IMG/VR virus record: IMGVR_UViG_3300032205_000014
Location: 1-28,487 of that record
DNA from: a virus
Length of the DNA stretch: 28,487 nt
Strand: one strand, 5' to 3'
Shown here: positions 6,119 through 27,914 of the stretch, piece after piece
How the letters are laid out: each line of letters starts with the position of its first letter
Position numbering within the stretch: the stretch's first letter is position 1
Position numbers and translations under genes: made by a program
Notes under the pieces: generated by a model
The model's input: the letters and a program-made list of their open reading frames with translations, nothing else
What the model was told of the DNA's origin: nothing
The model's database searches: none

Positions 6119-6589
6119 TCAACCGGGATCGGGGTGACTGCCACCGCCGCCGCCCGGGCCGGGGTCAGGGGAGCCGCCTCCCGAGCCGCCTCCATCAGGA
6201 GGTCCGCCACCACCTCCGCCGTCGGGTGGGCCTTCGCCGCCACCACCGCCGCCGTCAGGAGGACCAGCGCCACCGCCACCACCATCAGGAGGCCCAGACC
6301 CACCGCCACCACCGTCAGGAGGAGTGCTTCCACCACCGCCTCCAGTGCTTGGCGGGTTCTGGCTGACACCTCCACCCCCGCTGGCAGACTGAGGTGGACT
6401 GTGGGCTGGCTGCTGCTGCTGTTGTTCATCCTGCTTGTTGCCCCTGAATTGCACCCGCCCGTGCCTGTCGGCGCACTGGCTGACTTCCCTGTGGATGTTG
6501 ACCATGCGCAACACCCGGCACTGGTCCTCGGAGAACGTGACCCCGCAGGAGACAAGCATCAAGGGTATCAGGATCAGGACGCGTTTCAC
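6119..6589 (-). CDS. glycine/proline-rich lipoprotein; outer-membrane spanin candidate
   Basis: The protein has 156 aa and begins MKRVLILIPLMLVSCGV, a short signal peptide with lipobox LVSC, so Cys15 would be lipidated. A ~45-residue segment with two Cys and a Gln run follows. The remaining ~85 residues are repeats of PPDGGGGG. The start is GTG at 6589, overlapping the upstream stop as GTGA. The repeat region also gives long open frames on the other strand and in another frame; the clear lipobox and the coupling make this frame the real one. A lipoprotein coupled to an inner-membrane protein gene resembles an o-spanin following an i-spanin. The long glycine tract is unusual for that family. 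Confidence 0.7.
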   Translation of the reverse strand: MKRVLILIPLMLVSCGVTFSEDQCRVLRMVNIHREVSQCADRHGRVQFRGNKQDEQQQQQPAHSPPQSASGGGGVSQNPPSTGGGGGSTPPDGGGGGSGPPDGGGGGAGPPDGGGGGGEGPPDGGGGGGPPDGGGSGGGSPDPGPGGGGGSHPDPG

Positions 6590-9546: not shown

Positions 9547-10637
9547 CACATCCTCGCGTTCAGGCTGATGGTACTGTCGGAAACGAAGTTGCCGGCGGCG
9601 GCACTGACGGCATTGGCCGACAGGATAAAGGCACTTGTCCCGTAGTTCGTCGGTCCCGTGCAATTGCTGTTGGTCACGCCGGAAAATGCCAAGGCCGCGC
9701 CGACCCGCATGGGCGTTATCGCGGTTGACAGCCTACCCTGAAATCCGGCTGCGGTCCCGTAACCGGCTATGTAGCCGGTCAGTTTCTGCCAGTACCTCAT
9801 GCACGCCGCCAGTTCCTGCGCCTCGTCTGGCATCGTCCATGGCGGTGCAATGCCGGTGGCGAGCGGGTCGAGGTAGAGGCCGACATCGTAGAGTTCGAAG
9901 GTATTGCCAAGAGTGGCAAGGCCGTTGGTGTTGCTGGCTGTGCCGATGAGATTACCTGCCTGCCAGCCCGCAACGCCTTGCAAGGTCGTTCCGGTCGCCA
10001 TTGTAAAATAAATGATCATCCCCCGACTGGTGTCTGATGGCCAAGTGCCAGTTACGTCACCGGGAATGATGAAAGTCTGCGTCGTGTCTGTGTTGGCTTG
10101 CCCGGCGCTGATCGTGAAATTGGCGATATAGGATCGGTTAGCGGAGCCATTGTTGATGCTGATCGAATAGGTGCCCGCCGGAGACTTCCAGCCGAAGCGC
10201 AGGATCGCTTGCTTTGCAGCCGCGCTCCCCCATTGAAAATCCGCAAGGCGGATACCCTCGATATTGGTCTGGAGGAACAGGTACTCCCCGGCTGCGAGGG
10301 AAGCATCAGCTGCGGAAACATAGACCTGATAGCGATTTCTGGAGCCGTTGGGCGTGACTGCCTGCGCCCGTCCCGTGCTGACCGTACCTGTCGTGGCGAA
10401 AGTAGCCAGCCACTGATCGGCCCCATAGAAAGCAGACACTGTTGAGGTGGTGTTGCCGTTCTCTTGGCTTATCTGCATCGCGCCGTTCACGATGCGTGAG
10501 CGCGTCTCCGCCGTGGTCACGCCCGACACGACGCCGGCCTCGATTGCCCACGTGGTGCCGTCCCAGACGTAGCTTGGCCCACCTGCCGGGCGGTAGGCCG
10601 TGCCGGGGGTCGGATTGGCTGGGAAATCGAAAGCCAT
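9546..10637 (-). CDS. tail-fibre/appendage protein, paralogue B
   Basis: The protein has 363 aa and starts MAFDFPANPTPGTAYRPAGG, followed by RSRIVNGAMQISQENGNTTS. It matches paralogue A through PNGSRNRY, ISAGQANTDT, IPGDVTGTWPSDTSRG, GVAGWQAG, LDPLATGIAPPWTMPDEAQE and the terminal LNARM. The ATG follows the upstream fibre stop by two bases, with GAGGGG as ribosome-binding site. The C-terminal ~70 residues diverge most from paralogue A, as expected if this part contacts a variable receptor. There is no enzymatic motif. Confidence 0.75.
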   Translation of the reverse strand: MAFDFPANPTPGTAYRPAGGPSYVWDGTTWAIEAGVVSGVTTAETRSRIVNGAMQISQENGNTTSTVSAFYGADQWLATFATTGTVSTGRAQAVTPNGSRNRYQVYVSAADASLAAGEYLFLQTNIEGIRLADFQWGSAAAKQAILRFGWKSPAGTYSISINNGSANRSYIANFTISAGQANTDTTQTFIIPGDVTGTWPSDTSRGMIIYFTMATGTTLQGVAGWQAGNLIGTASNTNGLATLGNTFELYDVGLYLDPLATGIAPPWTMPDEAQELAACMRYWQKLTGYIAGYGTAAGFQGRLSTAITPMRVGAALAFSGVTNSNCTGPTNYGTSAFILSANAVSAAAGNFVSDSTISLNARM

Positions 10638-16897: not shown

Positions 16898-18811
16898 CTA
16901 GCGCGACAGCGCCGTGACCAGCACGCCCAAGCCGGCATTGGCGATATCGTCCGAACGGCATGACGCGCCTAGGCGGAAACCCTCATGCACGGGAACGTCA
17001 ATGCACAAGGCGACCGTCTCGACATCCAAGCGTGCCGCGTAAGCGCAAGCCTTGGGAACGCCGGCCGGCGTCTGGCACGCGCCGTCCGATATCACAAACA
17101 TCATTTTGCGCTTGGATGGCGCGCGATTGGCAAGCCGCGTCGCCGCGACGATCATTGACTTTGTGAGGGGGGTTCCGCCGCCGACGTCATAGGCGAGTTG
17201 CCCGAACCGCGATGCATCCCCGATCATGTCCTTATCGCCCTTCACAACGCGCAAGCCGCCGCTTGACGTGTTGAATTGCAGGACCTCGCACTTGACCCCT
17301 ACCTGATGCGCGGCTTGCGCGATGGCAAGCGCAAGCGACGCAGCCGCGAGAGCGCACACCATCATGGAACCGGAACCATCGACAAGAACGACGATTTCGG
17401 TTTCGTATCCGCCGGTAATGGTCCGCTTGGCGAACACGTTTTCGGTTTCGCCGGCCGCGATGCGCCAGTAAGCGAAGCGGTCGACGCGGCCGGAATTGCG
17501 GTTCCTATCCCATGCTTCCGTTTCTTCGGCACGCAGCACGCGCGCCACTTGCGCGCGAAGCTTGCCAGCCTTCATTGCCTCGCGCTTGACGATGCCGGCA
17601 TTGCCGTCATGGCCCGGCATCGTGGGAAGCGGCTTTGAAGCGTTGCGGCGGGCTTCCCGAATGGCATCGATGATTGCCGTTTCGCCATTCAGGGCTTGGC
17701 GGTTCCCGATTTTCTCGCGCGCCGTCTTGCGGTTTTGTTTCGCCTGCTTTTCCGACACGGGATTGATGTCGACCGGGAGCATGTCCTCGGGCTTGATGCC
17801 GGTTCCGCCGATTTCGCCCGGTTGACCCTTGTCGGTTCCGCCCGTGTCATTGCCGGCATCGCTCTCGCTCTCGCTCTCGCTCTCGCTCTCGCTCTCGCTC
17901 TCGCTCTCGCTCTCGCCGGCATCGCTCTCGCTCTCGCCGGCATCGCTCTCGCCGGCATCGCTCTCGCCGGCATCGCTCTCGCCGGCATCGCTCTCGCCGG
18001 CATCGCTCTCGCTCTCGCTCTCGCCGGCATCGCTCTCGCTCTCGCGGCCGGGATTGACCGGCATGTCGCTCTCGCTCTCGCTCTCGCGGCCGGGATTGAC
18101 CGGGAAATCGCCTTGCGGCTTTTCCGGCTTGGGCTGCGTCGCGAGTTCGCCCTTGATCCACCGGGCGATGTCTAGGACATCTTCGGTTGAACCGGCTCTA
18201 TCAAGCCGCGCCATTGCCTCGCCCACAAGGCTAGCAAGGGCGGGTTTCATGCGCGACAGCATGCGGCGACCCTGTGGAAGATCGTAACCGCAAATGTGGA
18301 CACGGCCGGCAATCGCCAGAACGTAGGGCAACTGGCGAAGATCGTTGACGTTGAACTTTTTGTCGGCAAGCGCGCTGTCGATGCTCCAAGCCATCAAGCC
18401 CGTGAGCAATTCGCGGTAGTTGCCGGCGAACGCGTCCTTCATCGCCTGCCGCTCAATGCGCGGGTCCTCTAGGCCGTTCACAAGCTCATGCACGCGTTCT
18501 TTGACGCCCTGCCGCCAAGCGGCAACCGACGTATAGAACGCGTGCGAAATTTCGTGAAGGAAGTATGCACAAAACCTGTCCATTTCGGCGCGCGTGATGC
18601 GCGTTGCGGCCGGCAGTACCGGGAAGTGCATCGTGACGTGAACGAAGCCATGATAGTCGGTTTCGTGCCAGATGGACGCGGTTCCCGTGACTTCGTCCGC
18701 TGTCGCCTTGATGCGTCCCGGCATGCGGCCGGTCATCAGGATGAAAGCGCGAATGTTGCTTTCCATTGCGTCAAGGGTATCGGGGAGTGCTATCGTTTGC
18801 ATTTTTGTCAT
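16898..18811 (-). CDS. metallopeptidase-like and vWA-domain protein, CobT-like
   Basis: The protein has 637 aa. Residues ~80-120 carry a zinc-protease motif HEISH (86-90; nt 18542-18556) followed by NGLEDPRIE (about 112-120). Residues ~240-325 are an acidic low-complexity linker of Ser-Glu and SDAGE repeats. The C-terminal ~180 residues are a vWA domain with a complete MIDAS: DGSGS (478-482), T547 in GGGTPLTKS, D576 in VISDGACQ. Family knowledge: cobaltochelatase CobT and related vWA proteins have this peptidase-like/acidic-linker/vWA plan and work with a MoxR/CobS AAA+ ATPase, which is the gene just upstream (18917-20368). No cobalamin genes are near, so a true chelatase role is unlikely. 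Two in-frame ATGs exist; 18802 has better spacing to CCTGAGG than 18811. Confidence 0.88.
   Translation of the reverse strand: MTKMQTIALPDTLDAMESNIRAFILMTGRMPGRIKATADEVTGTASIWHETDYHGFVHVTMHFPVLPAATRITRAEMDRFCAYFLHEISHAFYTSVAAWRQGVKERVHELVNGLEDPRIERQAMKDAFAGNYRELLTGLMAWSIDSALADKKFNVNDLRQLPYVLAIAGRVHICGYDLPQGRRMLSRMKPALASLVGEAMARLDRAGSTEDVLDIARWIKGELATQPKPEKPQGDFPVNPGRESESESDMPVNPGRESESDAGESESESDAGESDAGESDAGESDAGESDAGESESDAGESESESESESESESESESDAGNDTGGTDKGQPGEIGGTGIKPEDMLPVDINPVSEKQAKQNRKTAREKIGNRQALNGETAIIDAIREARRNASKPLPTMPGHDGNAGIVKREAMKAGKLRAQVARVLRAEETEAWDRNRNSGRVDRFAYWRIAAGETENVFAKRTITGGYETEIVVLVDGSGSMMVCALAAASLALAIAQAAHQVGVKCEVLQFNTSSGGLRVVKGDKDMIGDASRFGQLAYDVGGGTPLTKSMIVAATRLANRAPSKRKMMFVISDGACQTPAGVPKACAYAARLDVETVALCIDVPVHEGFRLGASCRSDDIANAGLGVLVTALSR
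17852..18087 (-). repeat. in-frame 6-bp and 15-bp tandem repeats in the vWA gene
   Basis: Head-to-tail 6-bp units (GAGAGC on the coding strand, Glu-Ser) are mixed with eight copies of a 15-bp unit giving SDAGE. At the end are two copies of a PVNPGRESES segment. Every unit is a multiple of three, so length changes keep the frame. The purity of the DNA repeat suggests recent slippage, and length may vary between relatives. Confidence 0.95.
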
Positions 18812-18840
18812 TTCCTCAGGTTTGTTTCTGTCTCGCGTTT

Positions 18841-18862
18841 TTAAAACGCCTAGGCGTTTTAA
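18841..18862. promoter_or_regulatory. 22-bp perfect palindrome upstream of the vWA gene, candidate operator
   Basis: The palindrome is centred on CCTAGG and includes AAAACGCCTAGGCGTTTT. It lies 30 bp upstream of the vWA start, between that gene and the terminator of the upstream AAA+ gene. Its core CGCCTAGGCG also occurs at 16966-16975 and 20655-20664, all within the same block, so it may be the binding site of a dimeric regulator. Because the flanks are A and T runs it could also act as a small hairpin. Confidence 0.55.
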
Positions 18863-18866
18863 CGAG

Positions 18867-18894
18867 AAAAGCGCGCTTGGTCAAGCGCGCTTTT
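18867..18894 (-). terminator. rho-independent terminator after the AAA+ gene
   Basis: A perfect 12-bp stem, AAAAGCGCGCTT / AAGCGCGCTTTT, with loop GGTC starts 23 nt after the AAA+ stop. A T-run follows on either strand (TTTTCTCG on the minus strand). It separates the AAA+ and vWA genes, implying that the two are expressed from separate promoters although they probably act together. Confidence 0.8.
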
Positions 18895-18916
18895 CACTCA
18901 CTAGGGGTTAGGCCGG

Positions 18917-20368
18917 TTATTCAACCGGCGTGAAAGGCGACCCGGGCATTGGAGCCGGAGCGGGAGCGGGAACCGGTTGCCCGTCTAGCTCTGCCTGATA
19001 TGCGCCCTTGTCGAAAGCCATTTTGATATGGGCCCGCAAGGCTTCCCGTTCCGCGTCCGGCAAGCGCGACAGCATGGTCATTTCAAACGCCGTGTCAGCG
19101 TTGAAACCGTGCCGCGTCGCCTTCACGAAAGCGATCATCCGGCGCAAGCTCATAGGCCGGTTCTCGAAGCCCGCGAGCTTGCGCACGCCGCCGATGAAGC
19201 TGACAACGCGTTCGCAAGCCGGAAGCGGCGCGCCCGTGCGATTGGCAAGCGCCTGCGTCTCCAAATCCAGCGGGAGATAGTCGACGTAAATCATACGTTC
19301 CATGCGGTCGACAAGCGCCGCATTGGCTTGCATCGTGCCCGAATAAAGCCCGGTATCGTCGCCGTAACCGCGCGTGTTGTCGCACGCCGCGAACACAACG
19401 CCATCCGCCACGGGAACGCGTTCGCCGGTCGAATGGATGTAGAGCACGCGAGCGCTCATCAGCGTTTGCAGCACGGCCGCCATTCCGGGCGGGGCGAGCG
19501 TGATTTCATCGAACATGATGACCGTTCCGGGCTGGCGTATGGCTTGTGTCAGGATACCGTCACACCAAACCATGCCACCGTTGCCGTCCGGCATCGGTTG
19601 CCCGATCAATTCGACCGCTTCCGCCTGTTTCTGGAAGGGAATGCACACGAACGGCCGGCCGGCATTCGCCGCGAATTGTTCCGGCATGGTTGATTTGCCG
19701 CCGCCGGCCGGGCCCGCAAGCCAAACGCTCCCGCCATGCTCCGCCGCTGTCGCGAGTTGCGCCATGTTGACCGGATCAACAACATACATGGGGTCAATCT
19801 TCGCCGCGTCCGGCGCGCTCCAAGCGGTCATGGGGAAGCTCGCGAGGGAACCCCTGATACCAAACATCTTGCCTAGCGTTGTCTGCTTGTCGCGGCGCGC
19901 GGCCGGCGCACGCTTGGGAAGCATGCGGGAACCGGAAGCGCCGGAACCCGAACCGGAAACGGGAACTTCAATTTCAACGATCTTTTCGATTTCCACGGCC
20001 GGCTTCAAGGCCAATTCGACAAGCGGCGCTAGCGCGGTTTCGACCGTCGCTAGGAGCGTGCTCGAAACAAAGGGACGCAGCACGTCCAGCACGGGTTCCG
20101 CGAGGGATGGCGTGCTTGTCTCGCCGTTTTCATCTTCAATCGGTTCGACCATGACCGCACCGGTAGCACGCGCCGCGTACCGGTCGATAATGGCTTGCGT
20201 TTCCGCTTCCGCTCCGAAAAGCGCAATCGCCTTGTGGATAAGATCGTTGCTGAAATCGCGGCTTGCGAAATTTCCATTCGCGGCGCGGAACGCATCGAAG
20301 CCCGGATTACGCCGGAGCATGCCCCGAATATCGTTCCGGACTTCGTTGTTTGTGAGATTGTAAGTCAT
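18917..20368 (-). CDS. MoxR/CobS-type AAA+ ATPase
   Basis: The protein has 483 aa. The first ~180 residues are an extra N-terminal part with an acidic/hydrophobic stretch (EIEKIVEIEVPVSGSGSG) that may bind the partner. The AAA+ core has Walker A GPAGGGKST (219-227), a QKQAEAVELIGQ segment, Walker B VIMFDEI (283-289), sensor 1 FAACDN (326-331) and a likely arginine finger in DRMER (354-358). The order and spacing match CobS/MoxR ATPases, which remodel or activate a vWA partner using ATP. That partner is encoded directly downstream. The ATG at 20368 has CCTGAGG seven to eight bases upstream; an almost identical leader precedes the vWA gene. CobS-like ATPases are known in tailed phages, but their role is unsettled. 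Confidence 0.9.
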   Translation of the reverse strand: MTYNLTNNEVRNDIRGMLRRNPGFDAFRAANGNFASRDFSNDLIHKAIALFGAEAETQAIIDRYAARATGAVMVEPIEDENGETSTPSLAEPVLDVLRPFVSSTLLATVETALAPLVELALKPAVEIEKIVEIEVPVSGSGSGASGSRMLPKRAPAARRDKQTTLGKMFGIRGSLASFPMTAWSAPDAAKIDPMYVVDPVNMAQLATAAEHGGSVWLAGPAGGGKSTMPEQFAANAGRPFVCIPFQKQAEAVELIGQPMPDGNGGMVWCDGILTQAIRQPGTVIMFDEITLAPPGMAAVLQTLMSARVLYIHSTGERVPVADGVVFAACDNTRGYGDDTGLYSGTMQANAALVDRMERMIYVDYLPLDLETQALANRTGAPLPACERVVSFIGGVRKLAGFENRPMSLRRMIAFVKATRHGFNADTAFEMTMLSRLPDAEREALRAHIKMAFDKGAYQAELDGQPVPAPAPAPMPGSPFTPVE

Positions 20369-20782: not shown

Positions 20783-20792
20783 ACAAAAGCAC
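20783..20792 (+). promoter_or_regulatory. ACAAAAGCAC site 1, candidate operator
   Basis: This exact 10-mer occurs four times in the window: here, 20970-20979 (reverse), 27524-27533 (reverse) and 27589-27598. Here it lies at the edge of the iteron-bearing gap. The copies in the divergent promoter region overlap promoter elements, so this is probably a binding site for a phage regulator. Confidence 0.5.
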
Positions 20793-20850
20793 ACCTGCCC
20801 ACATTCAGCATGCCTACCCGTTTATGTGACAATATCACTCCCCCTGTTTT

Positions 20851-20965
20851 GCGTAGGCTCATATCCGCAAACGCTTACGCAACCGGTGCGTAGGCCCCCC
20901 CCCCTTTCGGAGGGGCCTACGCACGCCTACGCCGCGAGCCTACGCAGAGCCTACGCAGCCTACGC
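20851..20965. repeat. iteron-like GCGTAGG/CCTACGC cluster, candidate replication origin
   Basis: Seven copies of the 7-mer are present. Two are on the plus strand (20851-20857, 20888-20894) and five are inverted (20916, 20926, 20939, 20950, 20959). The inverted copies are 9-13 bp apart, close to one helical turn. All but the one at 20926 continue to GCGTAGGC or TGCGTAGG. The second and third copies form the arms of the hairpin at 20886-20924. Regular repeats next to a primase-helicase gene and an AT-richer stretch are typical of theta-type origins. Confidence 0.65.
20886..20924. other. long inverted repeat with a C-run in the loop
   Basis: A perfect 13-bp stem, GTGCGTAGGCCCC / GGGGCCTACGCAC, has a 13-nt loop that can also pair internally (CCCCT/AGGGG around TTCGG). 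It joins two iterons in opposite orientation. A run of ten C residues starts in the left arm. It could be a nicking or melting structure of an origin, or a transcript-ending hairpin for the primase-helicase gene, although no T-run follows on the minus strand. Confidence 0.6.
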
Positions 20966-20969
20966 AAGC

Positions 20970-20979
20970 GTGCTTTTGT
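20970..20979 (-). promoter_or_regulatory. ACAAAAGCAC site 2, candidate operator
   Basis: This is the reverse-oriented copy of the 10-mer. It overlaps a GGAGACA motif (20977-20983) and sits seven bases after the primase-helicase stop. With site 1 it brackets the iteron cluster. Confidence 0.5.
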
Positions 20980-20985
20980 CTCCAC

Positions 20986-23337
20986 TTAAAACGGGCTTTC
21001 TTCATCACGCACCACCACAGTTTCTGTCCTCTCATGCTTGTTTTTCACCAAAGTCACCAAGCCTTTTTCAGCCAGCTTTTCGATGATCTCCCAAGCCACC
21101 TGATTGCTCACACCGAGCACGTGATGCACGCTGTCACCGCCGATCTGCGCCCCCGTCGCCCCTGCGCCGTAGCGCCGCAGCGCCTTCTTGCTATTGCGCA
21201 GCTTCTCCGTCCACGCCTTCTCGTCGGCCGCCGAGGACACGACGCCGAACACCGAGGGCATGACGATTGGCACCAGCACCGGCACCCAGTCCTTTTCAGG
21301 AAGTCCGGTTTCAGCGCCCAGCACGTCGATCTCGACGGTATGAAGCTCGTAGAAGCAGGCCACCACGTTCTGTCTCCCGTCGCTGTTCTTGACGATGAAC
21401 TCGACGACGATCTTCTTGCCGGCGAATGTGAGGAACCGCTTCTTCTCGTCGTCGGTCGGGTCGACCATGGTGACGAGGCCGCGCACCGTACCGGTGATGC
21501 CGCCGAAACCACGCGCCGCGCTCGCCAGCGAGCGCCCGTCCTCGTTATCCCAGCCAGCTTTGGTGCCGTGGTGGATCAGCACGACCGAGCACCAGAAGGC
21601 GTCGGCGATGTCCTCCAGCAGTGCCATCACCTCCATCATCTCCGAGGAGTTCTCGTCGAAGCCGATGACCGATGATGGCAGCGTATCGACGAACACCGCC
21701 GTGATCGCGTGGCCATTGCGCAGCCGCTTGACCATGGCCTCGACGATGCGCTCGCACTCGATGGTGGTGCCGCGACTGCCGTTCTTCATCATCAGCGCCG
21801 AGGAGACAGGAAAGACGCCATGCTTGGCTGGCTTGCCCAGCAGGTTGTGATGCTTGCGCAGGCCTCTGAGCCGCCGCTCGATGGTGTTCTTGGCGTCCTC
21901 GTTGCAGACATAGAAGACGTCGCCGGGGAATTGCAGCCGTTCGCCGCCGTCGCGCAGCAGGTCCTTGTCGGCATAGGCGATGGCCATGCTCTGTGCGAGG
22001 GCGAGCGTCGACTTGTGCTTGCCGGGCGGGCCAGCCAGCATCGACAGTAGCCCTTTGACGTGAGGCTTGAAGATGGTGGCCGATGCCGAGGGTGTCCCTG
22101 TGCTGGTCAGCACGTCGACCGCCTCGCCGGTCTTGGTGAGCCAGTTGCGATCCTTGTCTCCGCGATGCTGTGTCGGCACCGGGGTCAGCCGGCGGGCCTC
22201 TTCGAGCAGGGCATGGAAGCGCTTCTTGGCGGCCTCTTCCTTCCTCTCGTCGGGAGAGGCAGCAGGTCCATCACCGGGGATCGTCCCGTCCTCGACGGCC
22301 GTGAACGCTGTCTCCGCAATCATCCCCTGCACGGCGCGGTAGGCGTCGCTGTCCTTGCCGTGGCGCTTCTCGACCTCCTTGCGCAGCGTCGCGCCGGAAG
22401 CCTTGGCTTCGCCGATGTCCTCCCATGTCTTCTGCGGCTCGCGCTTCTCCTGCACCTGCTTGGCGCACCAGTCCTCCCAGATCGGGAAGCCCTCGTCGCC
22501 GCACGCTCCCTTGATGGCGCAGCCGATGACGAACCAGTCGTCATGGCTGGCGTAGAAGCCGTCATTGGGCAGGTAGGTCTCGACCACCTTGCGCACGAGA
22601 TCGACAGGCCATTGCTCGCCCCAGCCGCCGCTGCGGAGGGGAACGACATTGGCTGGTGCCGATGCCGTACCGAGAGACAGGCCGAAACCTTGGACAAGCT
22701 GCGCGAACGTGTAGGTCTGGCCGCTGAAGGACACCAGCCGGGTCGGGAAGTCCTCGCGGCCCTCCTTCGAGTTCACCCCGGTCGGCAGCCGGAAGTACTG
22801 TCCGATGGAGCCTTGGATGCCGGCCTTGTAGCGGGGGTCGTTCCGCATCGCCTCGCGCAGGCGATGCGCTTCGGCGTGGGTCATCGCCGGCTCCAGCTGG
22901 AAGCCGTACTGGTGATTGCCCTTCGATGTCTCGATCACCCATGTCGGTTCAGGCGTGTTTTGCATGTTGGCGACATCGAGCTTGGCTCCGGGGGCCTGAA
23001 CATGAACCGTGTCTCCCTCGCCCCGCACGCCGATGTCGTCCACCACGAAGAACGGCACGTCGATGACGTTGCTCTCCATCTCGCTGCGCTTGAACAATCC
23101 CTCCCGGTAGCGGGCGCTCGACAGGTGATGCCGTTCCGTCGGCAGCATGGCGGCGACGGCGTCGGGCGAGTAATAGCCGCCGTTCTCCAGCCGGTTCGCC
23201 TCCTTGGGCTTGCTCGCGGCGATCCACAGGCCTGCGGTGCCGTCACCGAGCAGCGCGGTGACGAAATCAACGCTGGATTGATTGGGGGAAGGGTCGGGGC
23301 CTTGCGGAGGGGGAGAGGCTGATCTATTTTCGCTCAT
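20986..23337 (-). CDS. fused primase and replicative helicase
   Basis: The protein has 783 aa. Residues ~90-200 look like a RepB/archaeo-eukaryotic-type primase core (PFFVVDDIGV, WVIETSKGNHQYGFQL, GQYFRLPTGVNSK). Residues ~255-320 resemble a PriCT-2-like primase C-terminal domain (SHDDWFVIGCAIKG...WEDWCAK...TWEDIGEAK). Residues ~420-660 are a RecA/RepA-type ATPase with Walker A GPPGKHKST (435-443), Walker B VFVDTLP (D551) and LIHHGTKAG. The end (~725-775) is a winged helix (VSNQVAWEIIEKLAEKGLV). The protein would unwind and prime phage DNA for the family A polymerase encoded upstream. This plasmid-like primase-helicase layout replaces a T7 gp4-type protein. The ATG at 23337 uses AAAGGA inside a 32-bp duplicated leader. 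Confidence 0.88.
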   Translation of the reverse strand: MSENRSASPPPQGPDPSPNQSSVDFVTALLGDGTAGLWIAASKPKEANRLENGGYYSPDAVAAMLPTERHHLSSARYREGLFKRSEMESNVIDVPFFVVDDIGVRGEGDTVHVQAPGAKLDVANMQNTPEPTWVIETSKGNHQYGFQLEPAMTHAEAHRLREAMRNDPRYKAGIQGSIGQYFRLPTGVNSKEGREDFPTRLVSFSGQTYTFAQLVQGFGLSLGTASAPANVVPLRSGGWGEQWPVDLVRKVVETYLPNDGFYASHDDWFVIGCAIKGACGDEGFPIWEDWCAKQVQEKREPQKTWEDIGEAKASGATLRKEVEKRHGKDSDAYRAVQGMIAETAFTAVEDGTIPGDGPAASPDERKEEAAKKRFHALLEEARRLTPVPTQHRGDKDRNWLTKTGEAVDVLTSTGTPSASATIFKPHVKGLLSMLAGPPGKHKSTLALAQSMAIAYADKDLLRDGGERLQFPGDVFYVCNEDAKNTIERRLRGLRKHHNLLGKPAKHGVFPVSSALMMKNGSRGTTIECERIVEAMVKRLRNGHAITAVFVDTLPSSVIGFDENSSEMMEVMALLEDIADAFWCSVVLIHHGTKAGWDNEDGRSLASAARGFGGITGTVRGLVTMVDPTDDEKKRFLTFAGKKIVVEFIVKNSDGRQNVVACFYELHTVEIDVLGAETGLPEKDWVPVLVPIVMPSVFGVVSSAADEKAWTEKLRNSKKALRRYGAGATGAQIGGDSVHHVLGVSNQVAWEIIEKLAEKGLVTLVKNKHERTETVVVRDEESPF

Positions 23338-23400
23338 AAGAATGAAGTCCTTTCGTGGGGCGGAGTTCTTGGAATGACGTCCTTGCTTGGGGCGGAGTTC
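23337..23400 (-). repeat. tandem 32-bp duplication of the primase-helicase leader
   Basis: Two adjacent 32-bp units (23369-23400 and 23337-23368) match at 27 of 32 positions. Each contains GAACTCCGCCCCA, then a Shine-Dalgarno-like AAGGAC or AAAGGAC, then a TCATTC run. The downstream copy provides the ribosome-binding site and the A of the ATG. The upstream copy keeps a Shine-Dalgarno-like site but has lost the start codon. It may be a ribosome standby site, a protein-binding repeat or a recent slippage duplication. Confidence 0.75.
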
Positions 23401-23572
23401 GAAAGGGATGCTGTCCTTAGTCGCTTGCTTGATGCGTCTCGACCGGTTCTGAAGGCGGGTCGGGATGCAAGGGTCCCCTCAGGTTCCCTTCGTCGACGAA
23501 AGATAGTCTCATTCCGAGGGTGCGGGCAATGCTTTGGTTGAGTGAACCTGCATCCGCCCCGGAAACAGACGA
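23401..23572. other. non-coding stretch upstream of the primase-helicase gene
   Basis: I see no credible gene. A long minus-strand open frame crosses it (to 23609) but is Arg/Pro/Ser-rich, overlaps the terminator-like hairpin and the 45-aa gene, and has no ribosome-binding site. A promoter for the primase-helicase gene is expected here because a hairpin separates it from the genes to the right. I could not identify good boxes. Confidence 0.4.
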
Positions 23573-23602
23573 GCCCTCCAGAGCCCCCCGGCACTGGAGG
23601 GC
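23573..23602 (+). terminator. strong hairpin at the end of the polymerase operon
   Basis: A 9-bp stem, GCCCTCCAG / CTGGAGGGC, has a 12-nt loop. A T-run (TTTT) follows on the plus strand, the classic terminator layout for rightward transcription. No rightward gene ends here, and the leftward 45-aa gene stops only four bases away. It may act on leftward transcripts as well, or block antisense transcription into the replication genes. Confidence 0.6.
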
Positions 23603-23605
23603 TTT

Positions 23606-23743
23606 TCATTTCAGGGCTGCCTCGATCTTATCGGTCAGCTTTTGTATTGCTGCCATCGAGGCAAAAGCGGTCAAACTGCCATCTTCAACGCCGATGCGGA
23701 TAGCTTGACGGAGGATGTGTAATTCCTTGGCTGTGAACTTCAT
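23606..23743 (-). CDS. small protein of 45 aa, unknown
   Basis: Starting at the ATG at 23743 the protein reads MKFTAKELHILRQAIRIGVE and then DGSLTAFASMAAIQKLTDKI, ending EAALK. It is a helical, weakly charged protein without membrane segments. The start overlaps the stop of the 108-aa gene as ATGA, which strongly supports translation. It is the last gene of the polymerase operon. No family is recognised. Confidence 0.7.
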   Translation of the reverse strand: MKFTAKELHILRQAIRIGVEDGSLTAFASMAAIQKLTDKIEAALK

Positions 23744-24066
23744 GGCTGGCCTTTCACAACTGCGCGGGCGCGTAACCAGTCGTCTTCGGTTGGACCTGCG
23801 GTATTGATCTCCCAGCCATCGGGGCCGTCATCGACGCTATCGGCGAATGGCTTCAGCACCTCGCGCAGTTCCTTCTCGCGTGCCTCTACCAGAGCCTCCT
23901 GCTCATTCAGCCATTTCGCCCAGCGAGCCGCCGTCTCATCTATGCGCTGCTGAAGCGCCTCGATGCGGTCGGCGGCCTCCTCCCACAGCGTCGGAAACCG
24001 TTCATCGTAGGTTTCCATCGCCTGTGCATGGCGGTGCCGCAACTGCTCGATCAGGTCGTCGCTCAT
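23740..24066 (-). CDS. helical coiled-coil protein of 108 aa, unknown
   Basis: The protein begins MSDDLIEQLRHRHAQAMETY. Residues ~25-75 form a likely coiled coil (EEAADRIEALQQRIDETAAR, LVEAREKELREVLKPF), and the tail ends GPTEDDWLRARAVVKGQP. Proteins with an EAADRIE-x-L core are frequent small ORFs in phages of GC-rich hosts. The ATG at 24066 follows AAGGAGACAG, where the GGAGACA motif doubles as the Shine-Dalgarno sequence. Frames extending further upstream overlap the polymerase and are not needed. The function is unknown. Confidence 0.75.
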   Translation of the reverse strand: MSDDLIEQLRHRHAQAMETYDERFPTLWEEAADRIEALQQRIDETAARWAKWLNEQEALVEAREKELREVLKPFADSVDDGPDGWEINTAGPTEDDWLRARAVVKGQP

Positions 24067-24083
24067 ACCTACTGTCTCCTTCT

Positions 24084-26051
24084 TCATTTCAGGCCATAGC
24101 GGTCCATCAGGCCCCCCTCGCAGGCGACCGGCAGTCCCTCCGCCCATGCCGGCAGCAGTTCGACGAGGCGCTTGGCGATCAGCATGCAGGCCACCGCGCC
24201 TGTCTCCGGCACTTCCCACACCAGTTCGTCGTGGACCGACAGGACCAGTTCGCCCGTGCCGGTCTTCTCGACGCGCAGCGCCGCTTCGGCCATGACGTCG
24301 CGGGCGATGGCCTGCGTCACGTTCTCGGCCAGCTTCGCTCCCCACGTCCTGATCGGCACCCACTTCTTGCTGGTCTGGTCGATGCCGTCGAAGACGATGG
24401 CGTCGCGGCTCTTTACCGGGTCGTATTCGAGCCGGGGATTGCGGTAGTACAGCATCCGTCCCGACGGCAGCTGGATCGTCATCCTGTCGCGGTTGGCATG
24501 GACGTGCAGGGACATCCGCGTGTGGTGGATGCTGACAGGCCCGCGCGGGTTCTGGATCGCGGCGCGGGCGGCGTCGTCGAGGTCGTGCCAGAACCGGACG
24601 ATGTGCGAATTGGCCCTGCGCCAGTCGTTGACGATTGTCTCGCTCTCCTCCGGAGACAGGGTCAGGCCGTAGCCCTTGGCAAGCTCGACGAACTTCTTCC
24701 AGCCGGTGCCGTATCCAAGACCCAAGACAACCACCTTACCGGCGTCCCGGTGCGGCAGGCCTAGCCTGTCCTTGGTGTAGGTGTAGACGTCCTCGCCGTT
24801 GGCGAAGACTTTCAGGATGTCGTCCTGCCCGGCCAGCCACGCGAGGACCCTTGCCTCGATCTGGCTGAAGTCGAACACGAGGAGCTTCTCCCCGGGGCCG
24901 GGGATGATGGTCCCCCGGAGACAGCGTGCGACGGCTTCGAGCGGCGTCGCCCAGAAGGTGCGCAGCGTCTCCGTCGCTTCCTTTGCCGGGGCGGTCTTGA
25001 CGTAAGGCACGATGTCGCGGATCGGGATCGCCTTGGAGGGCCGGGGGAAGTTCTGCGGCTGGATCAGCCGGCCCGAGAAGCGCCCGGTGCGGCCGGCCCC
25101 GTAATACTGGAGCGTGCCGCGCACCCGTTCGTCGTCCTCGACGCAGGCGATCATCGCCTTGAGCTTGCCGAGCGAGGACTTGGCGACCTCGCGGCGGATC
25201 GCAAGGACGCGACACACGTCGTCCGGAAGCTCCGCGTCGAACGCTGTCTCCAGCGTCTCCATGACGGTGGCCTTGTCGACCTTGTCGAGCTTGCAGCCAT
25301 GGGCTTCCAGCCAGTCGACGAGCCGCTTCACCTGCGTGCCGGGCTTGGTTACCGCGCCCTTGGTCAGGGCCGCGCATTCCCGGTCGAGCAGCGCTGTCTC
25401 CTCCTGCGCGATGCGGATGAAGGCGTGGACAAGCTCCAAGTCCAGTCTTACGCCACGGCCGTTGGTGAGGCGGTCGAGCAGCGAGACCTTCTGTTCCATG
25501 GGCGGCAGGTCCGGCAGCTGGTGCCCGGCGGCGCGTTCCGCGATGACGTCGCTCATGCAATAGGCCCCGAGCCGCGCCAGCATGGTCGGGCCTTCGGCCG
25601 GGTCGTCGTGCCAGAAGCTGCCGTCCTTGCGCGGCTTGCACATCTTCATCATCAGCCGGTAGCCCTCCATGTCCTTGGCGACGGGAAGGGCCATGGCGCT
25701 GGCTGCGTCTTCGAGGCGTGCCGGAAAGCCGGCGTAGAGCGAGCGCTGCATGGTGCAGACGAACTGCTTCGCCTTCACCGGGATGCCGAGCGTGTGCTGG
25801 ATGATCGCCATCTCGAAGGCGGCGTTCCACGCGTGTATCTCGCCACCGCTGCGGATGTGGTCGTCGACCGCCGTGGGGACGGGGGTCACAAGTGAGGCGA
25901 CCCCCCTTGACACGTGCCGCACCGGGCCGTTGTCGAAGGCCCATGCGAGACAGAGCACCACGGTCGAAAAATTTTTTGCGTAGGCCGAGGCCCCTGCCTT
26001 GCGCAGGTCGGCCTTGGAGGCGGTTTCGAAGTCGAGGGATAGTACAGTCAT
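24084..26051 (-). CDS. family A DNA polymerase with 3'-5' exonuclease
   Basis: The protein has 655 aa, near the size of T7-like polymerases. The N-terminal exonuclease has LSLDFETAS (D7, E9) and a later GAYCMSDVIAE motif, so proofreading looks active. The polymerase has motif A LLVFDFSQIEARV (D394), motif B R435-x3-K439...YG (Y447) and motif C SVHDEL (D608). In motif B the residue at the usual Phe/Tyr position is Leu443, which may change nucleotide discrimination. The polymerase replicates phage DNA with the primase-helicase. The ATG at 26051 follows GAAGGG within the end of the upstream gene. Seven CGTCTCC/TGTCTCC-type motifs lie in this gene, five of them exact GGAGACA sites. Confidence 0.95.
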   Translation of the reverse strand: MTVLSLDFETASKADLRKAGASAYAKNFSTVVLCLAWAFDNGPVRHVSRGVASLVTPVPTAVDDHIRSGGEIHAWNAAFEMAIIQHTLGIPVKAKQFVCTMQRSLYAGFPARLEDAASAMALPVAKDMEGYRLMMKMCKPRKDGSFWHDDPAEGPTMLARLGAYCMSDVIAERAAGHQLPDLPPMEQKVSLLDRLTNGRGVRLDLELVHAFIRIAQEETALLDRECAALTKGAVTKPGTQVKRLVDWLEAHGCKLDKVDKATVMETLETAFDAELPDDVCRVLAIRREVAKSSLGKLKAMIACVEDDERVRGTLQYYGAGRTGRFSGRLIQPQNFPRPSKAIPIRDIVPYVKTAPAKEATETLRTFWATPLEAVARCLRGTIIPGPGEKLLVFDFSQIEARVLAWLAGQDDILKVFANGEDVYTYTKDRLGLPHRDAGKVVVLGLGYGTGWKKFVELAKGYGLTLSPEESETIVNDWRRANSHIVRFWHDLDDAARAAIQNPRGPVSIHHTRMSLHVHANRDRMTIQLPSGRMLYYRNPRLEYDPVKSRDAIVFDGIDQTSKKWVPIRTWGAKLAENVTQAIARDVMAEAALRVEKTGTGELVLSVHDELVWEVPETGAVACMLIAKRLVELLPAWAEGLPVACEGGLMDRYGLK

Positions 26052-26054
26052 GTA

Positions 26055-27269
26055 TTAGCCCTTCACCTCGTAGTCATGGAACACCTTGCCAATCGCCTCG
26101 TCGCCGCGTTCGTGGTGGTCGATCCAGCGGATCAGGTGTTCACATTTTCGGCATAACGCGTAATTGCCGTCCCGTTCAGCCACCACGTGGGCGCACAGGA
26201 AGCGCATCGGGGCCTTGCGGCTGTCGACGACGCGCCAGTGCCCGCGCACCTCGTGCCAGCGGTTGTGCCGCCCGGTCGCCTCGTGCATGTGCTTCTCGTA
26301 GACGGCCATCTCGTGCCCCGGTCGGGCGTCGATCTTGATGGTCGTGAAGTCCAGTTTGGGGACGTTCCTCAGGCGGTGCTGGAACGAGCCCTTGACGCTG
26401 TGCTGGATTTGCAGCAGCGGCACCACGTTGATCGACGATAGGATGGAGACGGCCCAGCGCAGCTTGCCGGCCCCTTCGGCGGCGAAGCGTCCGGCGGCGC
26501 GGGTAATGAAGTCGCTGGCGGCGTCCACGCGTTCTCGACCGCCCAGTTCGGCGGCGCGCAGGGCTCCCTGCAATATCGGCAGGAAGAAACGACCTTCCGG
26601 CACGGCAACGCCGCGTTGCAGCAGTTCGTCGTGGATGGCGTATTGCAGGTTGCTGGTGCCGCCCTTGTCGACATAACCCCAGCCGGAGGCCAGCAGGTTC
26701 TGGATGAAGCTGCTTTTCGCGAAGTTCTGATGGTTGGCGGGATCGATGTCGCGGGCGTCTTGGTCGAGCGAGAAGTAGGCGGCGTAGGGCCAGACCGGCA
26801 GCGAGTTCTCGCTGTCGCAGCAATGCGAGACGCGCCACGCGTTGGCGTTGCCCCTGTCGATGCGCTCGAACAACAGGCCGGCGCGGCCGTAATCCTCGTT
26901 GGGGTTGAAGCCGTAGGAGGTGCCTATCTCCTTGGCCGCTGCGCTGGTGCCACGGACACGGGTGTTGTCGTCGTATTCGACGAACACCACGTCGTGCGGC
27001 AGCTGCGACAAATGCGCCATGGCCAGCATGTCGGTGGGTCCGCCTATCGTCTTGCGCGCCACCTGATGGATGAAGTTGTCGTCGAGCCGGTAGCGCTTGG
27101 CCTCGCGTATCGTCTCGCGCAGGTGGCGCTTCTGCCCGGCCTGCCACTCCTTGGTGACCTTCGCGTCGGGGTAGCTGATCTTGGCCTCGCCGATACGGTC
27201 GAACACCGGACGCGTGTCGTAGGTCCAAGCGTGCAGCCAGTCGGCCAGCGTGTCTGTCTTGATGGACAT
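26055..27269 (-). CDS. conserved-looking replication-operon protein, unknown
   Basis: The protein has 404 aa from the ATG at 27269 (AGGAG seven bases upstream; a GTG one codon earlier overlaps the previous stop). A helical N-terminus and central part carry FVEYDDNTRVRG and KSSFIQNLLASGWGYVDKGG. A C-terminal part has a distinctive HNRWHEVRGHWRV (about residues 335-350). A short Cys/His-rich end, FLCAHVVAERDGNYALCRKC then EHLIRWIDHHERGDE, might bind zinc. Phage proteins with a VRGHWR-like motif next to polymerase genes are familiar, but I know no established function. Its place between the 68-aa gene and the polymerase suggests an accessory role in replication. Confidence 0.75.
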   Translation of the reverse strand: MSIKTDTLADWLHAWTYDTRPVFDRIGEAKISYPDAKVTKEWQAGQKRHLRETIREAKRYRLDDNFIHQVARKTIGGPTDMLAMAHLSQLPHDVVFVEYDDNTRVRGTSAAAKEIGTSYGFNPNEDYGRAGLLFERIDRGNANAWRVSHCCDSENSLPVWPYAAYFSLDQDARDIDPANHQNFAKSSFIQNLLASGWGYVDKGGTSNLQYAIHDELLQRGVAVPEGRFFLPILQGALRAAELGGRERVDAASDFITRAAGRFAAEGAGKLRWAVSILSSINVVPLLQIQHSVKGSFQHRLRNVPKLDFTTIKIDARPGHEMAVYEKHMHEATGRHNRWHEVRGHWRVVDSRKAPMRFLCAHVVAERDGNYALCRKCEHLIRWIDHHERGDEAIGKVFHDYEVKG

Positions 27270-27475
27270 CACTTCGCTCCTTTCCGCTTGCTTCCGACGA
27301 TGGTGTCGATGCGGGCTAGGAAGGCATCCTTGTCTGGATCGCTCATGCGATCCCAGAGATTGCGGACGAAGGCGTCGGCGACGTCTTCACCCTTGCGCGG
27401 GACGATACGTTCGGCACGGAGCTTGCCGCTGCGGATGGCGCGGCCGAGCTTGGAGTTCGGATCGAGGCAGGTCAT
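27269..27475 (-). CDS. small basic protein, first gene of the replication operon
   Basis: The protein has 68 aa (MTCLDPNSKLGRAIRSGKLR...). The middle is amphipathic (EDVADAFVRNLWDRMSDPDK) and the end basic (GSKRKGAK). The ATG at 27475 has AAAGGAA seven bases before it. It is the first gene after the leftward promoter at 27508-27536 and its stop overlaps the next start. The charge suggests nucleic-acid contact; no family is recognised. Confidence 0.7.
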   Translation of the reverse strand: MTCLDPNSKLGRAIRSGKLRAERIVPRKGEDVADAFVRNLWDRMSDPDKDAFLARIDTIVGSKRKGAK

Positions 27476-27507
27476 GGGAGAGTTCCTTTGGTCGAGTGAA
27501 CGCCGTA

Positions 27508-27536
27508 CATATCAAGGGCTCGCGTGCTTTTGTCAA
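27508..27536 (-). promoter_or_regulatory. leftward sigma-70-type promoter for the replication operon
   Basis: On the minus strand a perfect -35 box TTGACA (27531-27536) is followed after 17 bases by GATATG (27508-27513), or after 19 by TATGTA. The ACAAAAGCAC site overlaps the -35 box and spacer, so a protein bound there would block RNA polymerase. Transcription would start about 30 bases upstream of the 68-aa gene. Confidence 0.6.
27524..27533 (-). promoter_or_regulatory. ACAAAAGCAC site 3, candidate operator
   Basis: An exact copy of the 10-mer overlaps the -35 box of the leftward promoter. With site 4 it forms an inverted pair 55 bp apart across the divergent promoters. Confidence 0.55.
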
Positions 27537-27578
27537 CTTAAAAAAGTGAAAATTTTTGTCGGCCCGACATAATCCCTA

Positions 27579-27607
27579 TTGCGCCGGCACAAAAGCACCG
27601 ATATATG
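27579..27607 (+). promoter_or_regulatory. rightward promoter candidate for the regulator operon
   Basis: TTGCGC (27579-27584), a 17-bp spacer and TATATG (27602-27607) precede the HTH-like gene by about 37 bases. The ACAAAAGCAC site lies within the spacer. The -35 box is imperfect. Confidence 0.5.
27589..27598 (+). promoter_or_regulatory. ACAAAAGCAC site 4, candidate operator
   Basis: An exact copy of the 10-mer lies in the spacer of the rightward promoter, as expected for autoregulation of the first rightward gene. Confidence 0.55.
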
Positions 27608-27644
27608 AAGCGAACACCAACGAAACCCCACCGAGGTTAACGCA

Positions 27645-27914
27645 ATGTCCGGTCGCTACACCCACGTCAAGCCGCTGACCGAGCGAAACTATCCCGACTA
27701 TAAGTTCCGGGAACTGCTGGCCGCTGTCGGCAACGATCAGGAGGTTCAGGACGTCATCGTCACGGCGGGCTTCGAGCCCCCGACCGCCCACGTCATCCGT
27801 GGCTGGCGACGACGGAACTCGATCCCGCCGCGCTGGCTTCCGATACTCATGCACAAGGCCATGGCCAAGGGCGTCATCCGCAGCGCGGACGACCTCCTGA
27901 AGGCTCCGTTCTAA
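27645..27914 (+). CDS. small helix-turn-helix regulator candidate
   Basis: The protein has 89 aa. The C-terminal half reads TAHVIRGWRRRNSIPPRWLP, followed by helices. The VxxWRRRxxIPPxW pattern is the recognition region of small phage repressor/Cro-like and carph-isopro-type proteins, in which a helix is followed by IPxxW. The ATG at 27645 follows GAGG by eight bases. It is the first rightward gene beside the divergent promoters and their paired 10-bp sites, so it is the best candidate for the protein that binds them. Whether it represses early genes or keeps lysogeny is open; no integrase is in view. Confidence 0.7.
   Translation: MSGRYTHVKPLTERNYPDYKFRELLAAVGNDQEVQDVIVTAGFEPPTAHVIRGWRRRNSIPPRWLPILMHKAMAKGVIRSADDLLKAPF

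Follow-up and report, generated by a model that had tools for sequence, protein, structure and literature searches.

Conserved operator-like 10-mers at the divergent promoters of a tailed-phage genome fragment and the Cro-like protein that probably binds them

The DNA analyzed here (the window, i.e. the whole stretch of 28,487 bases) is an IMG/VR virus record and, next to a relative of 49 kb, evidently a fragment of a tailed-phage genome. Its genes include those for terminase, portal protein, a family A DNA polymerase, a PriCT-2/AAA primase-helicase and a CobS/CobT-like pair (Table 1). A control region at 27476-27644 sits between the leftward gene of a 68-aa protein and the rightward gene of an 89-aa protein, and the rightward operon continues after the latter with small zinc-ribbon-like and RuvC-like genes, assigned by inspection. 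The pair of a CobS-like AAA ATPase and a CobT-like VWA protein (16898-20368) is common to the 49-kb relative and to Microcystis phage Mae-Yong1326-1. Within the CobT-like gene of the window, hexamer and 15-mer DNA repeats (17847-18035) encode a Ser-Glu/Ser-Asp-Ala-Gly-Glu run.

Table 1. Positions of the putative operators, candidate promoters, repeats and genes in the window
Feature	Positions	Strand	Remarks
CobS/MoxR-like AAA ATPase	18917..20368	-	downstream of W1/W2
W1, putative operator copy	20783..20792	+	upstream of the CobS-like gene, left of the CCTACGC repeats
CCTACGC repeat cluster	20850..20966	.	flanked by W1 and W2; the "iteron gap" of the preliminary description
W2, putative operator copy	20970..20979	-	right of the CCTACGC repeats, just beyond the primase/helicase stop codon
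Primase/helicase-like protein (PriCT-2 and AAA_25)	20986..23337	-	leftward operon
Family A DNA polymerase	24084..26051	-	leftward operon
405-aa protein of unknown function	26055..27272	-	leftward operon
68-aa protein	27269..27475	-	heads the leftward operon; across the promoters in the relative
Candidate leftward promoter TTGACA-17-GATATG	27508..27536	-	predicted, read by eye; -35 conserved in the relative
W3, putative operator copy	27524..27533	-	overlaps -35 TTGACA of the candidate leftward promoter
Conserved block TTTTTGTCGG	27553..27562	.	between the two promoter operators; 10-nt identity to the relative
Candidate rightward promoter TTGCGC-17-TATATG	27579..27607	+	predicted, read by eye; counterpart in the relative TTGCGT-17-TATAGA
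W4, putative operator copy	27589..27598	+	within the 17-bp spacer of the candidate rightward promoter
89-aa Cro-like HTH protein, putative binder	27645..27914	+	first in the rightward operon; predicted fold; 61% identical in the relative

The word ACAAAAGCAC is present in four exact copies in the window (W1 to W4), and allowing one mismatch reveals no fifth copy there. The preliminary description had reported these four copies with fewer than 0.1 expected, and the count holds: 800 anagrams of the word gave a mean of 0.058 exact copies in the window (that is, about 0.06) and a maximum of 2. All four copies are intergenic on our gene map, in which intergenic DNA makes up 3,032 of the 28,487 bases (10.6%). 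Given the two promoter copies, the Poisson chance of at least two others anywhere is about 1 in 600 (mean 0.058). A shuffle control with one mismatch allowed expects 1.15 copies and reached four in 3 of 100 shuffles, but it is the expectation for exact matches that is relevant here, and chance is not a credible source of the four copies. W1 and W2 are inverted with respect to each other, and their 16-nt arms are complementary at 88%.

The other two copies lie in the control region and overlap a -35 box or a spacer, as had been described, the promoters themselves being predictions. In the leftward register the operator begins inside the TTGACA hexamer, and in the rightward register it is located in the spacer. 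The only candidate from a generic scan, the rightward GTGAAA-16-CATAAT (27546-27573), lacks a conserved counterpart in the relative and was discarded for that reason.

The question raised by the preliminary description of whether the site is found at the promoters of close relatives can be answered from the only one that we found, IMGVR_UViG_3300047409_000236 (G001; 49,130 bases), such that conservation here refers to two genomes. The two phages share 85% identity in terL, 61% in the polymerase, 60% in CobS and 61% in the 89-aa protein. The divergent promoters of G001 hold the same inverted pair, with ACAAAAGCAC at 10180(-) and GCAAAAGCAC at 10234(+), and the placement is also the same, with one site on the leftward -35 and the other in the rightward spacer. 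In the alignment of the two regions, 19 of the 20 operator bases are identical, compared with 86 of 129 other ungapped positions, and the longest identical block, the 21 nt GTGCTTTTGTCAACTTAAAAA, consists of the leftward operator, its -35 and an A-rich upstream part. It is close to certain that the divergent promoter region contains conserved regulatory sites. The block TTTTTGTCGG keeps an equal distance from the W3 site in both phages and is possibly a weak third site or an UP element. Start to start, the two operators lie 65 bp apart in the window and 54 bp apart in G001, a difference of about one helical turn that, with two genomes, is only suggestive.

Beside these promoters, gene order differs between the two phages. 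The 68-aa gene runs leftward before the 405-aa gene in the window, whereas in G001 (10277-10474) it has the opposite orientation and runs rightward before the 89-aa gene. Because the control region points the same way in both phages, we rejected a simple inversion that took in both this gene and the promoters. Conservation includes the leftward leader TCCTTTGGTCG, despite the different first leftward gene. As read from the two sequences, the control region is maintained as one unit despite the shuffling of the 68-aa gene.

Of 2.9 million viral contigs scanned, 10 contain the inverted pair, which is intergenic only in G001 and coding in the other nine. Among viruses, the 20-nt left block matched G001 alone. 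The lone match of this block in a genome scan, in a Mailhella MAG directly upstream of a tRNA gene, was judged to be chance. No closer relatives were found with either the primase or the 89-aa protein as query, the 405-aa protein returned two distant loci only, and a scan of GTDB genomes with the 89-aa alignment gave no match. Alignment of terL identified 18 more viral contigs, many of them short, with common structural genes; the eight longest contain no homologue of the 89-aa protein or of CobS, and CAAAAGCAC occurs among them once, in one contig only.

A Cro-like helix-turn-helix fold is confidently predicted for the 89-aa protein. Its AlphaFold2 model, built from a two-sequence alignment, has helices at residues 21-28, 31-40, 48-57 and 65-74 with pLDDT above 90 over most of the helical core, in a Cro-like four-helix arrangement. 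The top Foldseek match is N15 Cro, although it is weak (E 2.8), a VIA-align comparison with a Xylella prophage Cro gives a middling Z of 4.2, and the best structure matches are of the Cro and cI types; the predicted fold agrees with the earlier assignment as HTH-like, with weak structural matches. The protein also matches the carph-isopro domain (NCBIfam NF046037) with an E of 7e-6 and 26.1 bits (22.8 bits for the G001 protein), below the curated cut-off of 38 bits. Weak matches of this kind, all below the cut-off, are found in proteins of all four phages considered here, and no mention of the domain was found in the literature searched.

In Mae-Yong1326-1 and in Rhizobium phage RHph_N65, a distant homologue is encoded in the Cro position, next to a DicA/cI-type repressor. 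Mae-Yong1326-1 lacks the ACAAAAGCAC site. The corresponding region of RHph_N65 has an inverted 11-mer, CGGACAAAATG, of which one copy falls within the 17-bp spacer of its rightward promoter, and the 10-mer core of this word is found nowhere else in that genome. Judged by its sequence, this region is of the same architecture as that of the window, with a related ACAAAA core. Neither a cI-type repressor nor an integrase is located at the locus in the window or in G001, and tblastn with the repressors and integrases of Mae-Yong1326-1 and RHph_N65 returned nothing significant in the window fragment or in G001.

On balance we favor the 10-mers as operators, which we infer to be bound by a Cro-type autoregulator, probably the 89-aa protein, that controls two divergent early operons. 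The control region would drive a leftward operon of the 68-aa, 405-aa, DNA polymerase and primase/helicase genes and a rightward operon in which the 89-aa HTH gene comes first. Protein bound at the leftward -35 and in the rightward spacer would block RNA polymerase at both promoters, such that the 89-aa protein, as it accumulates, would bind the operators and shut off its own promoter together with the replication operon. Lambda-type Cro systems (N15/PY54 Cro, immB) similarly have a small HTH protein beside divergent promoters and operators overlapping promoter elements, and N15 Cro is the best, though weak, structural match of the 89-aa protein. In contrast to these, the window locus has no cI gene, its leftward promoter would drive polymerase and primase genes, and its site has no dyad. 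RHph_N65 is alike in having the distant homologue in the Cro position and an inverted A-rich operator-like pair with a copy in the rightward spacer; it differs in that CGGACAAAATG is partly palindromic, in carrying a cI-type repressor and an integrase, and in that no CobS/CobT-like pair is annotated.

The main point against the 89-aa protein as binder is the missing dyad. A Cro dimer normally recognizes a site with dyad symmetry, but neither the 10-mer nor the flanks of seven aligned sites, checked by eye, show a clear dyad, and the site is not palindromic. A site of this kind would suit operators of another protein, either from the host or an unrecognized phage regulator, with the 89-aa HTH protein having other targets; several small early proteins of G001 are without a Pfam family match, and the window is a fragment of its genome, which leaves room for such a regulator. 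We nevertheless consider this unlikely, as G001 has no detectable counterpart of the cI-type repressors and integrases of the two distant relatives, and the 89-aa gene encodes the only promoter-adjoining protein with an HTH-like fold and is conserved together with the sites. The neighboring 68-aa protein is not predicted to be an HTH protein, on a weak model (pLDDT 68).

It is improbable that the 10-mer is a promoter part, i.e. an extended -35 or a spacer element for a particular sigma factor, and that its copies simply mark promoters. Two copies do overlap predicted promoters, and the chance copy of the left block in the unrelated MAG has a promoter-like setting upstream of its tRNA gene. However, the registers of W3 and W4 relative to the -35 differ by 7 bp, which favors an operator over a promoter element, and no promoter-like sequence accompanies W1 and W2.

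The copies outside the divergent promoters bear on how far an operator system would extend. Within one mismatch, G001 has seven copies, six of which are intergenic on our gene map against 0.36 intergenic copies for anagrams (maximum 3). These are the two at the divergent promoters, one at 2690 upstream of CobS, two at 47612 and 47667 upstream of late genes, and a sixth at 6375 between polymerase and primase that is intergenic only depending on the primase start. As exact or one-mismatch copies are thus found in several intergenic control regions of G001, the 10-mer is likely to mark a multi-site regulon. Under the autoregulator reading, the copies that precede the CobS/CobT-like genes in both phages and the late genes in G001 would extend its action to later control regions.

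The regulon proposed in the preliminary description therefore stands as likely multi-site control, but the link that it drew to an origin is not supported: G001 shows no enrichment of the CCTACGC repeats, and no promoter is predicted near W1 and W2. It is very doubtful that these two copies are part of a replication origin to which an initiator, or a regulator coupling replication to transcription, would bind. They do flank the CCTACGC cluster, and the G001 copies at 47612 and 47667 adjoin a tandem repeat cluster of another kind, but the two phages do not share the repeats, the clusters are in different places, and the nearby polymerase and primase genes do not locate an origin. The G001 cluster (47696-47850), composed of GGCTCGCGCCCATGGTCGAGGC, is located between the CobT-like and late genes. 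Upstream of its CobS gene (2696-2890), G001 also carries arrays built of GGGAGACAC and GGAGCGCCGAAGCGCC, which have no counterpart in the window.

A more speculative extension, which we put forward tentatively, is a Cro-only circuit in a lineage without the cI half of a lambda-type switch and with a replication operon in its place, in which the operator has spread to later control regions and a single small protein would time the transcription of early, CobS/CobT and late genes. Overall, as a phage switch element the site is well founded, if rather ordinary. It provides a concrete putative operator in a phage group that is barely annotated, and it opens the function of carph-isopro-like proteins to testing; should the additional copies prove functional, a Cro-type regulator would serve as a timer for the whole genome in a phage that has no recognizable lysogeny repressor.

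A different short word is abundant in the same genomes. GGAGACA is the most over-represented 7-mer in both phages, with 43 occurrences against 2.7 expected in the window and 80 against 4.8 in G001 (repeat arrays masked), and it is distributed roughly equally on both strands and over both genic and intergenic DNA. RHph_N65, for which no CobS/CobT-like pair is annotated, has no over-represented word as strong; Mae-Yong1326-1 has another such word, AGGACA (133 against 22.4).
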